Both the position numbers and the translations under genes were made by a program. From a virus: a stretch of 27,916 nucleotides of DNA. The DNA lies in the IMG/VR virus record IMGVR_UViG_3300009170_000021, positions 1-27,916 of that record; one strand, given 5' to 3'. Positions 7,114 through 14,726 of the stretch are shown here, in pieces. Position 1 is the first letter of the stretch. Every line of letters begins with the position of its first letter. The notes under the pieces were generated by a model, which was not told the DNA's origin, did not search any database, and saw only the letters and a list, made by a program, of their open reading frames with translations.

Positions 7114-7449
7114 ATGAAAAACGTTCAATTCAAAGCATCTGAGAAGTTGGTTCAAGAAGTAGGAAATGTTGAGTTTGGAGTAGTGAAGCGTGGACGGCCG
7201 GTAGGGAGTGGAGTGAATCCGGAATCAAAGCGTCAGCGCCGTTTGGCTGAACTGAATGAGAAGCGAGCCAATGGAGAGTTGAAGCGAGGACGTCCGGTTG
7301 GAAGTGGTATCAATCCAAATTCAAAGCGTCAATTGCGAATTGCGGAATTGGAAGCAAAACGAGCCAATGGAACCTTGAAAGCAGGTCGTCCAAAGGGTAG
7401 CGGAACCAAAACCGCCCAAACCGAAACCATTGAGGTAGTAGTAGGATAA
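7114..7449 (+). CDS. AT-hook-like repeat DNA-binding protein (paralogue 1)
   Basis: A 111-residue basic protein with three repeats. Each carries an AT-hook core, KRGRPVGSG or AGRPKGSG (GRP at about residues 27, 59 and 91). The first two are followed by NPxSKRQxRxAELxxKRANG, a basic linker and short helix. The GRP core flanked by Lys/Arg is the minor-groove-binding AT-hook motif, so binding to AT-rich DNA is likely. Tandem cores separated by charged helices suggest a nucleoid-like or transcription-modulating protein, acting in the cytoplasm on host or phage DNA. A paralogue with the same design is at 10769, and both end a promoter-cassette cluster and precede a gene-poor stretch. The gene is GC-richer than its neighbours, and its repeated DNA could recombine internally. 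Confidence 0.75.
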   Translation: MKNVQFKASEKLVQEVGNVEFGVVKRGRPVGSGVNPESKRQRRLAELNEKRANGELKRGRPVGSGINPNSKRQLRIAELEAKRANGTLKAGRPKGSGTKTAQTETIEVVVG

Positions 7450-7576
7450 GAAATAAAGGATGGATGGTGAGGGAGAAGGAAGATAGATAATAATACTCCC
7501 AGGGGTTTGATCGTTTACAACCACATAAGGTATCCGGGAATGGAAATCGGTGGCGTCCAGGAAAAATGATCCATAA

Positions 7577-7608
7577 AAACATAGTAGAAACATACTAGAA
7601 ACATAGTG
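7577..7608 (+). repeat. Three tandem 11-bp repeats (AAACATAGTAG)
   Basis: AAACATAGTAG (7577-7587), AAACATACTAG (7588-7598) and AAACATAGTG (7599-7608) follow each other without gaps. They lie just before the stable hairpin at 7615 and could be protein-binding sites. Confidence 0.85.
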
Positions 7609-7614
7609 TGGGAG

Positions 7615-7640
7615 GGGGGGAACCAGGAATGGTTCCCTCC
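7615..7640 (+). other. Very stable hairpin with GGAA tetraloop
   Basis: GGGAACCA (7618-7625) pairs with TGGTTCCC (7630-7637) around GGAA, a GNRA-type loop. The stem extends to 11 bp through a G-T wobble (7617/7638) and two G-C pairs. No T-run follows, so it is more likely a structured RNA element or 3' end than a classical terminator. Confidence 0.65.
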
Positions 7641-7712
7641 AATATATTAAATTGATGTTTAGAGGAATGGTAAGTGGGTGACAAATAAAGAGGTAAGGGT
7701 GAAACGAGGAGT

Positions 7713-7745
7713 GGGGTAGGGGAGGGGTAGGTGACAAACAAGGGG
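7713..7745 (+). other. G-quadruplex-capable G-runs
   Basis: Four runs of four G (7713-7716, 7719-7722, 7724-7727, 7742-7745) are separated by 2, 1 and 14 nt. A four-tetrad quadruplex is possible on the + strand, though the last loop is long. Confidence 0.5.
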
Positions 7746-7845
7746 TGTATGGAGTCATGTTAAGAAATGGTCTGGTGCTTGCATTCACCCACACCTCCAA
7801 ACTTCCTCTTTAAAAAAATATATACTTTTCAAAAAAAAAATACCT

Positions 7846-7874
7846 GGGGGAATGGGGGGCTCCCCCAACCCCCC
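7846..7874. other. G/C-block hairpin beside a ten-A run
   Basis: TGGGGG (7853-7858) and CCCCCA (7862-7867) form an inner stem with loop GCT, and the outer blocks GGGGG (7846-7850) and C7869-7874 can pair around small bulges. A run of ten A (7831-7840) precedes it. Read on the minus strand this is a hairpin followed, five bases later, by ten T, so it could stop leftward transcription, although no minus-strand gene is seen. Confidence 0.6.
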
Positions 7875-7908
7875 TATAGGGAAGCTTGGCGTTTCTCATA
7901 AGAGATCA

Positions 7909-7916
7909 TATATTTA
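7909..7916 (+). promoter_or_regulatory. Possible late-type promoter element TATATTTA
   Basis: TATATTTA is followed by TCACCGTAATAA. The spacing resembles the late elements at 11513 and 12383, but no start codon follows, so if active it would make a noncoding transcript through the repeat region. A chance match in AT-rich DNA is possible. Confidence 0.2.
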
Positions 7917-8109
7917 TCACCGTAATAAAACGTTATTAATTAATAAGCTTACAGCCAAACACCACAGCCAGACCCGCCAAAGTGCGTATAAGAATGTCGA
8001 TAGTGCATCGGTTTAAGTTAGCTAAAGCCAAACAGATTAATAGCAATTTATTCAATTTTACGGGCATTTTCACTATTGACTATGCTTCTGTCTCGGGCGT
8101 TTTCGTTTT

Positions 8110-8126
8110 TGATCACCAGGTGATCA
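8110..8126. promoter_or_regulatory. Perfect 17-bp palindrome, operator-like
   Basis: TGATCACC A GGTGATCA is an inverted repeat with 8-bp perfect arms and a single central base. It lies between direct-repeat copies 2 and 3, at the position expected for a dimeric DNA-binding protein's site. Confidence 0.6.
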
Positions 8127-8215
8127 GGAATTTTCCTTACTATCACTGTTTTGTTTTCGAGGCATTTTCATTATTGAATCATAAAATAAAACATGCTCGT
8201 GATGCTAAGGGTAAA

Positions 8216-8232
8216 GCTAATGATTAATTAGC
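8216..8232. repeat. Inverted repeat GCTAAT/ATTAGC
   Basis: GCTAATGATTAATTAGC has perfect 6-bp arms around GATTA. A related one, TAATAA-AACG-TTATTA, is at 7923-7938. Both lie in the gene-poor region and are short enough to be coincidental. Confidence 0.4.
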
Positions 8233-8358
8233 ACATAGCCTATTTCCCAGGCACTTTCACTATTATTCAATAAATGCTCTCAGGCGAATTCGCTATTGAA
8301 CTGATTGATTAATCACACATTAGCGTAAGGGCGCTACGTGGATAATTTAATTTAGATA

Positions 8359-8392
8359 CTTGTTTTATTAGATAAAAATTGTTATATTTAGC
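8359..8392 (+). promoter_or_regulatory. Promoter cassette 12
   Basis: A weaker -33 (CTTGT, 8359-8363), a 19-nt spacer, and TATATTTAGC (8383-8392). The leader after it is AATAATTAATTAAAAATAAT rather than the usual TATAAGATTTAAAA. Confidence 0.65.
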
Positions 8393-8427
8393 AATAATTA
8401 ATTAAAAATAATTAATAAAAAAGAAAA

Positions 8428-8655
8428 ATGGAAGTATTTAAATTGTGGGTTGAAGAGGATGGTTTGGTAATAATTGAAAATAGATATTTTTTGACCTTTG
8501 ATAAAGCTTATGAAGGTCTAAATAATTTAATTGAAACAATAGCTTGGGAAGGAATGGGCCTTAAATTGACACAATATATTGAAAATAATTTGGTCACTTT
8601 TTATGATAAAGAAGCCAAGATTGGTGTTTATATTAAAGGAGAGGAAATTAATTAA
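8428..8655 (+). CDS. Small acidic protein, unknown; start of the C-poor block
   Basis: A 75-residue protein (MEVFKLWVEEDGLVIIENRY, then FLTFDKAYEGLNNLIETIAW) with a beta-beta-alpha-beta pattern and an acidic character. It resembles other small phage proteins with WVEEDGLVIIENRYF-type strands, but I cannot name a family. Cytosine is scarce (14 in 228 nt), and the cytosine-free stretch begins at 8617, inside this gene. The next promoter's boxes consist of TTAATTAA-type repeats just after its stop. Confidence 0.65.
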   Translation: MEVFKLWVEEDGLVIIENRYFLTFDKAYEGLNNLIETIAWEGMGLKLTQYIENNLVTFYDKEAKIGVYIKGEEIN

Positions 8656-8666
8656 TTAATTTAGAA

Positions 8667-8700
8667 TTTTATTAATTAATATTTATTTATTATATTTAAT
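8667..8700 (+). promoter_or_regulatory. Promoter cassette 13 (TTAATTAA-rich variant)
   Basis: TTTTA (8667-8671), a 19-nt spacer, TATATTTAAT (8691-8700). The usual GG after the -7 box is lost, and the leader is built of AATTAATTAAAA repeats, like cassette 12. Confidence 0.7.
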
Positions 8701-8730
8701 AATAATTAATTAAAATAATTAATAAATAAA

Positions 8731-9051
8731 ATGAAGAAGTTTAAAGAAGGAGAATTGAAGGTTGTTGATTATATTTTAGAAAATGTATTTAGTAGTTTGG
8801 ATGGGGATTATAAGGATTATAAAGAAGGAGATTTGGTAGAATATAAAGTAGGGTTAGATTGGTTTGATATGTGGAGTATTGGAATTAAAATAGAAGAAAT
8901 GATGGAGGAGATTAGTAATAATAGTTTATGGGAGAATTTTGAAATTGAAATATATAATGGGGATGTTTGGAATGTAAAGAGAAGTGTAGAAAATGGGAAG
9001 TTTGAAGATGGAGAAGTTTATAAAGTAAGTTTTAAGTATAAGGTATTTTAA
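8731..9051 (+). CDS. Cytosine-free gene for a small acidic protein
   Basis: A 106-residue protein encoded by 321 nt without a single C in the coding strand. It therefore has no Ala, Pro, Thr, His or Gln, uses only TTA/TTG for Leu, AGT for Ser and AGA for Arg; Cys, although possible, is also absent. The sequence (MKKFKEGELKVVDYILENVF, then GDLVEYKVGLDWFDMWSIGI and EEMMEEISNNSLWENFEIEI) still has a plausible alpha/beta pattern with regular hydrophobic spacing, and it sits properly behind promoter 13 with promoter 14 after it, so it looks like a working gene. Function is not recognised. Its extreme composition differs from every other gene here except the one at 9103. Confidence 0.75.
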   Translation: MKKFKEGELKVVDYILENVFSSLDGDYKDYKEGDLVEYKVGLDWFDMWSIGIKIEEMMEEISNNSLWENFEIEIYNGDVWNVKRSVENGKFEDGEVYKVSFKYKVF

Positions 9052-9079
9052 TAATTAAAAATTATTTGTTATATTTAGG
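9046..9079 (+). promoter_or_regulatory. Promoter cassette 14 (overlaps the preceding stop)
   Basis: TTTTA (9046-9050) overlaps the last codon and stop of the preceding gene. A 19-nt spacer leads to TATATTTAGG (9070-9079), then TATAAGTTTTAAAAA. Confidence 0.75.
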
Positions 9080-9102
9080 TATAAGTTTTAAAAATAAGAA
9101 AA

Positions 9103-9300
9103 ATGACAGTTAAAGAATTGATTGGGATGTTGGAGAAAGTTGAAAATAAAAATTTAAAAGTAGTAATTAGAGAAGAAGATCCATCTGACTATGTTTATTT
9201 TAATAAAATAGATAGTGTAAAAGTAGGGAATGTTTATTATGAGGGGTTAGAAGAATATAAGGTTAGGAAGAGGGTTATAATTGATGGTGGGGTGTTTTAA
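9103..9300 (+). CDS. Small conserved-type protein, nearly C-free
   Basis: A 65-residue protein: MTVKELIGMLEKVENKNLKV then VIREEDPSDYVYFNKIDSVK and a basic C-terminus (YKVRKRVIIDGGVF). The pattern 'helix MTVKELIGMLEKV, strand LKVVIREED, strand KIDSVKV, strand KRVIIDGGVF' matches a group of small phage proteins I have seen, all without assigned function. Its 198 nt hold five C (9107, 9181, 9182, 9185, 9189). Single gene of cassette 14. Confidence 0.7.
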   Translation: MTVKELIGMLEKVENKNLKVVIREEDPSDYVYFNKIDSVKVGNVYYEGLEEYKVRKRVIIDGGVF

Positions 9301-9366: not shown

Positions 9367-9621
9367 ATGACTATTAACAAAAATTCCCAGTTCTGGTTGG
9401 AGGTTGAGAGTGGAAAGACGGTTACGGTAAACGGTAATGAAGTACCAGTTTGTTATTGGAATTTGAATGTGTTGCGGGGACAGTTGAAAATGTATAGTGT
9501 TGGTTTGAAACCAAACCGTCATTGGAAAATTGGTGATGTGAAGAAGTATTTTGGATTTAAGGGTAATAATGATGAGTTGTTGGGGTTGGTTGAAGGGTTG
9601 ATTAAGGAATTTAAGGGGTAA
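9367..9621 (+). CDS. Small protein of unknown function
   Basis: An 84-residue basic protein: MTINKNSQFWLEVESGKTVT then VNGNEVPVCYWNLNVLRGQL, KMYSVGLKPNRHWKIGDVKK and a helix (NNDELLGLVEGLIKEFKG). Strands are followed by a basic loop (KPNRHWK). Its last third is C-free (9521 to 9644, running past the stop), so the skew fades rather than stopping abruptly. No family is recognised. Single gene of cassette 15. Confidence 0.65.
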   Translation: MTINKNSQFWLEVESGKTVTVNGNEVPVCYWNLNVLRGQLKMYSVGLKPNRHWKIGDVKKYFGFKGNNDELLGLVEGLIKEFKG

Positions 9622-10768: not shown

Positions 10769-11065
10769 ATGTCTAAGAACACCAAAAACCAAGTCGTGAT
10801 GAACGTTGAATTGAATGTTGAAAAGCGTAAGGCCGGTCGGCCGGTTGGCAGCGGTATCAATCCAGAATCGGCTCGTCAGAAGCGTTTGACCGAAATTGCG
10901 AATCGTATCGCAAGTGGTGAAGTAATTAAGCGCGGTCGACCAGCAGGTACTGTGAACCCGGAATCGAAGCGTCAAATGCGAATTGCCGAATTGAACGCTA
11001 AAAAAGCAATGGGAGGTGGAAAGCCCGGCCGCCCTAAAAAAGTTGTCGAATCTGTCGAGGCGTAA
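10769..11065 (+). CDS. AT-hook-like repeat DNA-binding protein (paralogue 2)
   Basis: A 98-residue basic protein built like the one at 7114: KAGRPVGSGINPESARQKRL, then KRGRPAGTVNPESKRQMRI and KPGRPKKVVESVEA. Three GRP cores (about residues 23, 54 and 86) alternate with short charged helices (TEIANRIASGEV, AELNAKKAMGGG). Minor-groove binding to AT-rich DNA is expected from the motif. The shared NPESKRQ(M/R)R(I/L)AEL segments show that the two genes are paralogues, but the copies have diverged, which argues for distinct roles. The gene is GC-richer than its neighbours and uses CGT/CGG Arg codons rare elsewhere in the window. It ends the second cassette cluster. Confidence 0.75.
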   Translation: MSKNTKNQVVMNVELNVEKRKAGRPVGSGINPESARQKRLTEIANRIASGEVIKRGRPAGTVNPESKRQMRIAELNAKKAMGGGKPGRPKKVVESVEA

Positions 11066-14417: not shown

Positions 14418-14502
14418 GGTGAGGTGGCAGAGTGGTCTATTGCGGCGGTCTTGAAAACCGTTGTACTGCAAGGTACCGAGAGTTCGAATCTCTCCCTCAC
14501 CG
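14418..14502 (+). tRNA. tRNA-Ser (UGA anticodon)
   Basis: Acceptor arms GGTGAGG (14418-14424) and CCTCACC (14495-14501) pair perfectly. The anticodon loop CTTGAAA gives TGA. The T-arm is GAGAG-TTCGAAT-CTCTC, and the long variable arm is typical of tRNA-Ser. CCA is not encoded (GCCT follows), so it must be added. It reads UCA and, by wobble, other UCN codons, common in the tail genes. Confidence 0.93.
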
Positions 14503-14508
14503 CCTAAA

Positions 14509-14593
14509 GGAAGATTGCCAGAGTGGTTAATGGAGCGGTTTGCTAAACCGTCGTCAAGAAATTGATGCGTTGGTTCGAATCCAACATCTTCCG
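14509..14593 (+). tRNA. tRNA-Ser (GCU anticodon)
   Basis: Acceptor GGAAGAT (14509-14515) pairs with ATCTTCC (14586-14592). The anticodon loop TTGCTAA gives GCT, for AGU/AGC. The long variable arm and the T-arm with GGTTCGAATCC fit tRNA-Ser. CCA is not encoded. Only 6 nt separate it from the preceding tRNA, so they are one transcript. Confidence 0.93.
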
Positions 14594-14616
14594 CCCGAAC
14601 GAAGCAAATAGAGGAT

Positions 14617-14697
14617 GCCCAAGTGGTGGAATGGTAGACACGCTGGTCTTAGGAGCCAGTGCCGAAAGGCGTGAGAGTTCGAGTCTCTCCTTGGGTA
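14617..14697 (+). tRNA. tRNA-Leu (UAG anticodon)
   Basis: Acceptor GCCCAAG (14617-14623) pairs with CTTGGGT (14690-14696, one G-T pair). The anticodon loop CTTAGGA gives TAG, reading CUA and other CUN codons. D-loop TGGTGGAATGGTAGACACGC, a variable arm TGCCGAAAGGCGT and T-arm GAGAGTTCGAGTCTCTC are all as in tRNA-Leu. No CCA is encoded. Confidence 0.93.
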
Positions 14698-14726
14698 CTA
14701 ATTTTTTAAACTTAACCATTAATGTT

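Follow-up and report, generated by a model that had tools for sequence, protein, structure and literature searches.

Certain phage genes are written without cytosine, and our analysis showed that this C-free state is real, specific to C, carried by gene families and maintained through deep divergence. We observed it in a 27.9-kb virus fragment (the whole stretch analysed, hereafter the window), in which the + strand runs for 490 nt without a single C, and in relatives whose C-free runs take in several complete genes. The window probably belongs to a T4-like myovirus of a Bacteroidota-type host and a relative of Immutovirus, as indicated by a baseplate wedge protein encoded in its right half that shares 49% identity with its counterpart in Flavobacterium phage immuto, a syntenic HD-protein region and TATATTT-type promoters. 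Its left half contains small genes with no function assigned (here, as throughout, genes were called as ATG-to-stop ORFs), most of them with their own promoter repeat (TATATTTAGG.TATAAG), which we take to be of the type known for Bacteroidota. The window also carries tRNA-Ser(TGA), tRNA-Ser(GCT) and tRNA-Leu(TAG) at 14418-14698.

The cytosine-free stretch of the window

On recount, the C-free stretch consists of 207 A, 105 G and 178 T, and only six C occur on the + strand between 8617 and 9370 (at 9107, 9181, 9182, 9185, 9189 and 9301), while the C-free gene inside it (Table 1) has 126 A, 89 G, 106 T and zero C; the counts given in the original prediction were thus exact. The surrounding C-poor zone extends from the promoter at ~8370 to ~9900 and also holds the next-longest C-free runs of the window (124, 111 and 102 nt); outside it the longest is 67 nt. 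The longest G-free run of the window is an ordinary 68 nt. Some genes of the zone retain 3-6% C, and therefore the constraint is graded. Upstream of the zone, at 7880-8340, C is at an ordinary 16-21%; the interval 7450-8340 contains no convincing gene, is G-rich in its first part and has three copies of a GGCATTTTCACTATTGA-like repeat.

An origin by chance had been judged effectively nil, and this held. The log10 probability of a 490-nt run lacking C is −32 given the 14.1% C of the window and −8 given the 3.8% C of the local zone, and 200 order-2 Markov simulations of the window produced a mean longest C-free run of 66 nt, none going beyond 94 nt. An assembly error was ruled out by three sequences: a contig 99.9% identical to the window (L009) repeats the 490-nt run; L010 (IMG/VR 3300042560_002994), a relative with 93-96% identity that came from a different sample, has a run of 903 nt and an additional C-free gene of 72 aa; and in the isolate immuto the 357-nt gene gp143, at the matching place, contains 5 C as against 89 G.

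Table 1. Coordinates of the C-free stretch, its genes and promoters, and the flanking repeat genes in the window.
Feature	Position	Strand	Remarks
RGRP-repeat gene, left flank	7114..7449	+	
C-poor gene, 75 aa	8428..8655	+	its promoter at ~8370-8397 is the left edge of the C-poor zone
C-free stretch, 490 nt	8617..9106	+	base counts
A+T-only promoter and 5' leader for the C-free gene	8665..8732	+	TATATTTA core at ~8690-8697
C-free gene, 106 aa	8731..9051	+	homologues in L010 (close) and L145 (remote)
Promoter repeat TTTGTTATATTTAGGTATAAG ahead of gene 9103	9062..9085	+	
C-poor gene, MTVKELI family, 5 C in 198 nt	9103..9300	+	in other phages, homologues also sit in C-poor zones
C-poor gene, 84 aa, at the right-hand shoulder	9367..9621	+	
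RGRP-repeat gene, right flank	10769..11065	+	paralogue of the 7114 gene

The remote homologue of the C-free gene has 27% protein identity and 2 C in 354 nt. No usable match in Pfam or PHROG was obtained for 20 C-free or C-poor proteins, the product of the C-free gene included, and the predicted model of this protein was poor (pLDDT 62). The two RGRP-repeat genes of the window are AT-hook-like. Such genes also occur around or near the islands of eight other contigs (L096, L097, L102, L105, L107, L110, L138 and L144); two of them flank the island in several relatives and at least one is present in many others.

Cytosine-free genes in related phages

A search with a pattern of the promoter followed by 170 non-C bases returned 15 viral loci, the longest run being found in L110, whereas its counterpart excluding G in place of C returned none. 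The pattern covers one promoter type, and therefore these locus counts are lower bounds; family searches added two further contigs, L149 and L138, with runs of 1354 and 696 nt. Altogether, C-free runs of 1665, 1354, 977, 903, 702 and 696 nt were found in relatives, encompassing up to six whole ORFs with their promoters, and the state recurs in at least a dozen distinct contigs, with the proviso that most relatives are metagenome contigs and several comparisons reuse related sequences. The C-free pattern had no match in the genomes of 84,980 prokaryote species, nor had the gene family A8 described below, and a full-text search of open-licence papers returned none on C-free phage genes. Two extremes of composition were seen along the way: a 129-aa gene with 39% G and zero C (L149:1551-1940), and 183 nt of pure A+T, with neither C nor G, that include promoter-like repeats (L010:3108-3290). 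In another phage (L112, IMGVR_UViG_3300009790_000707), the minus strand at 767-1813 has 1047 C-free nt with no convincing gene, directly upstream of a terminase-like gene and with 16-21% C on either side, which may be a separate phenomenon.

The islands have a recurrent location. The 166-kb genome G001 contains a single C-poor zone, in a small-gene cluster ~4-8 kb upstream of the HD-protein gene; the C-poor or C-free zones of G015 and immuto lie 9-17 kb upstream of that gene and the zone of the window ~7 kb. As nearly all genes of G001 are on one strand, its one zone is not what a genome-wide coding skew would give. No island, and no C-free run above 84 nt, is present in two near-complete sister phages, G020 (163 kb) and G024 (170 kb), and because of this we regard the islands as accessory. 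The condition that the original prediction had set for its refutation, homologues with normal C content in related phages, did not arise: wherever homologues of the C-free genes were found they too were depleted of C, although some sister phages have no islands at all. Homologues of the C-poor 9103 gene sit again inside C-poor zones in five contigs (L093-L097).

We counted the differences between aligned relatives, as the original prediction had proposed. Segments with less than 1% C showed 173 A/G and 15 C/T differences, while segments with more than 15% C showed 586 of each; the C-free state is therefore maintained. The family A8 gave 820 A/G against 9 C/T differences when summed over all pairs, which are not independent, and every homologue found, down to ~53% protein identity, has 0-2 C and 60-77 G per gene, even though in three distinct contigs these genes sit in much C-richer surroundings (flanks with 20% C). 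In two other families, too, distant relatives have few C or none: one comprises the C-free gene of the window and its homologue in L145, the other is common to L108, L110 and L149. The presence of purifying selection within a C-free constraint, as had been suggested, was thus backed by the substitutions, by the family A8 and by the codon data given below. The predicted A8 model was confident (pLDDT 86), with weak fold matches, some of them to SUI1-like domains. In the A8 genes of L100, L104 and L145 the sole two C stand side by side, at relative position 0.74 in all three, within the conserved Gly-His.

The rule concerns C and not GC content, since G ranges from 11% to 39% among genes with no C. 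In the core zones C stands at 0.1-0.2% in coding and intergenic DNA alike, with 24.6% G in the coding part; the intergenic part has 0.2% C, a lowered G of 9%, and more A (48%) than T (42%).

Isolated C-free genes have runs that start 21-50 nt before the ATG, near the −7 box or the inferred transcription start, and end at, just after or shortly before the stop codon; in arrays and partly C-poor genes these boundaries are not clean. The boundaries of the isolated genes would fit a transcript-level constraint that reaches as far as the stop codon. In L110, L138 and L149 a terminator-like hairpin that contains C (GTGGGTGGTCAG.AATGATCACC) stands at an island edge, and in L110 it brackets the whole large island, with one copy on either side. 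Within genes of less than 1% C the residual C lie late (mean relative position 0.73; 0, 1, 4, 10 and 6 by quintile), as expected if early C hurts most, a trend that is suggestive when taken by family (0.68, p = 0.055, not significant). Among genes with 1-3% C, threonine codons hold 47 of the 118 residual C, against ~15% in normal genes. Inspection by eye showed ACA in low-C genes, which would speak against MazF-type ACA avoidance.

Selection against cytosine and its possible causes

Two of the causes proposed at the outset, selection against C and repeated C-to-T change, predict different codon usage, and we compared 2100 codons of C-free proteins with normal small genes of the same phages. 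Serine makes up 5.4% of the C-free proteins and is always encoded by AGT, which accounts for 24% of the serine codons in the normal genes; valine is not raised (6.9% vs 6.5%), and Asp, Glu, Lys and Asn are increased. At the third positions of Val and Gly codons, T represents 34% of A+G+T in the C-free genes and 45.5% in the normal ones (chi-square p = 0.0006). A deaminase-type signature, that is, a silent-site excess of T and the products of Ala-to-Val and Thr-to-Ile changes, was sought in the C-free genes and did not appear. The lower silent-site T, the unraised valine and the serine kept as AGT argue for selection and against C-to-T drift, on the presumption that C-free and normal genes are otherwise equal in silent-site and codon preference.

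The state has persisted over long evolution and has left G untouched, so C must be under some form of negative selection in these transcripts; the selection appears to act on transcription or on the RNA itself. Our preferred explanation, which we put forward tentatively, is that the islands constitute C-less transcription units, made up of accessory early genes in T4-like phages with hosts of the Bacteroidota type, from which selection would strip every C of the transcribed unit, approximately from the promoter −7 box through the stop codon, because they are made when the incorporation of C is difficult. The position of the genes and their promoter type suggest early expression. Speculatively, they would be needed while adding a C slows or halts RNA synthesis, with CTP depleted or poisoned, for instance through a host defence or as a consequence of infection; a C-less transcript would then be completed where others stall. 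Multi-gene runs with six ORFs and the failure of the G-free pattern to match count in favour of such units. Against them speak the 3-6% C kept by some genes in the zone of the window and the low intergenic G of the core zones, which a pure RNA-level rule does not predict. That CTP itself is limiting or poisoned while these genes are expressed, a step read from the anatomy of the units, is possible but on the doubtful side. Rather doubtful is the further proposal that these are natural C-less genes expressible without usable CTP, with a counter-defence or resource escape embodied in base composition.

The main rival to the CTP reading places the constraint on the DNA template. If the phage DNA carries 7-deazaguanine through a putative DpdA pathway, a C-free coding strand amounts to a G-free template, on which the host polymerase would meet no modified base in the incoming DNA. 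The island-bearing genomes G001, G002, G014 and G015 encode DpdA and QueC, immuto encodes DpdA, FolE, QueC, QueD, QueE and QueF, and the most extreme genes have promoters composed of A and T only, G-free on both strands. DpdA is common in this phage group, however, so its co-occurrence with islands says little. It is also present in the island-free G020 and G024 and in Campylobacter phage CP220, which has no C-free run above 78 nt and whose group has been reported to be highly modified by dADG (PMC6884629). DpdA is therefore not sufficient, and we rejected it as a sufficient cause. DNA modification may contribute to the C-free state, and avoidance of template guanine as its explanation is unlikely.

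Strand-specific mutation, in which non-template cytosines are repeatedly deaminated (in an R-loop, by transcription or by an enzyme) and the proteins adapt, would account for the strand specificity, the gene-by-gene extent and the intergenic loss of C. The codon data run against it, as does the intergenic excess of A over T in the core zones, and a local R-loop or origin effect, or any region-wide mutation, fits poorly with single genes that stay C-free in surroundings with 20% C. As for the deaminase that had been suggested as a cause, the cytidine/deoxycytidylate deaminase family PF00383 was not found in 14 contigs searched, one of 166 kb and most of them fragments, a search that a host enzyme would escape. 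We keep a small chance for a mutational origin because the codon test assumes otherwise similar codon preferences.

A comparably small chance is left to unstructured or Rho-proof mRNA, in which the removal of C takes away all G-C pairs and all Rho loading sites. For the RNA-structure cause named in the original prediction the outcome is divided: the C-free genes do fold at half the energy of normal small genes (−9.3 vs −18.7 kcal/mol per 100 nt), but a mean z of 0.12 against synonymous permutations reveals no structure avoidance beyond composition. Neither reason obviously demands removal of the last C, yet C is down to ~0.1%.

Escape from a host or phage RNase, or from an RNA-modifying toxin that attacks C, is slightly less probable again. 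Such an enzyme would make no distinction between coding and untranslated RNA and would be distributed patchily among phages, both in line with the observations, but we identified no candidate, and residual C are found mostly towards the end of the gene, a trend not significant by family. To our knowledge, the loss of every C regardless of context exceeds what short-motif RNases select for. Lastly, ordinary AT richness and coding-strand skew made extreme by chance would suit AT-rich phages with more G than C on the coding strand in this part of the genome, but the simulations, the recurrence among distinct contigs and the 39% G of a C-free gene leave it practically negligible.

Significance and comparison with known systems

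Coding DNA does without one base over 1.6 kb and is kept so in phages that share only 27-63% identity between their C-free proteins. This implies that selection on the nucleotides themselves outweighs any demand for Ala, Pro, Thr, His and Gln. The identity of this force would reveal a host defence aimed at CTP or at C within RNA, a limitation of the host polymerase on modified phage DNA, or another constraint.

Several known systems resemble the islands in part. Strand skew and purine loading (GC skew, Szybalski's rule) likewise favour purines over C on the coding strand; these are shifts of a few percent over kilobases, unlike the islands, in which one base is missing from whole multi-gene units with sharp edges. 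The C-less (G-less) cassettes used in vitro are laboratory constructs whose transcript lacks one nucleotide and is made without that NTP, whereas the islands are natural protein-coding phage genes with a putative independence from CTP. Deaminase-driven or diversity-generating hypermutation makes base- and strand-specific changes in short regions, with which the codon and silent-site data of the islands do not fit. The 7-deazaguanine (DpdA) phages such as CP220 have DpdA and Que genes in common with the island phages, but CP220 lacks long C-free stretches. A further system is Immutovirus with its relatives: in immuto the baseplate and HD-protein regions are syntenic with those of the window (49-50% identity) and the C-poor gene gp143 lies at a similar place, ~9 kb upstream of the HD gene, although it is one near-C-free gene and not a long island. 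As immuto and its host Flavobacterium sp. LMO8 are in culture and carry this milder form of C depletion, the question is directly testable.
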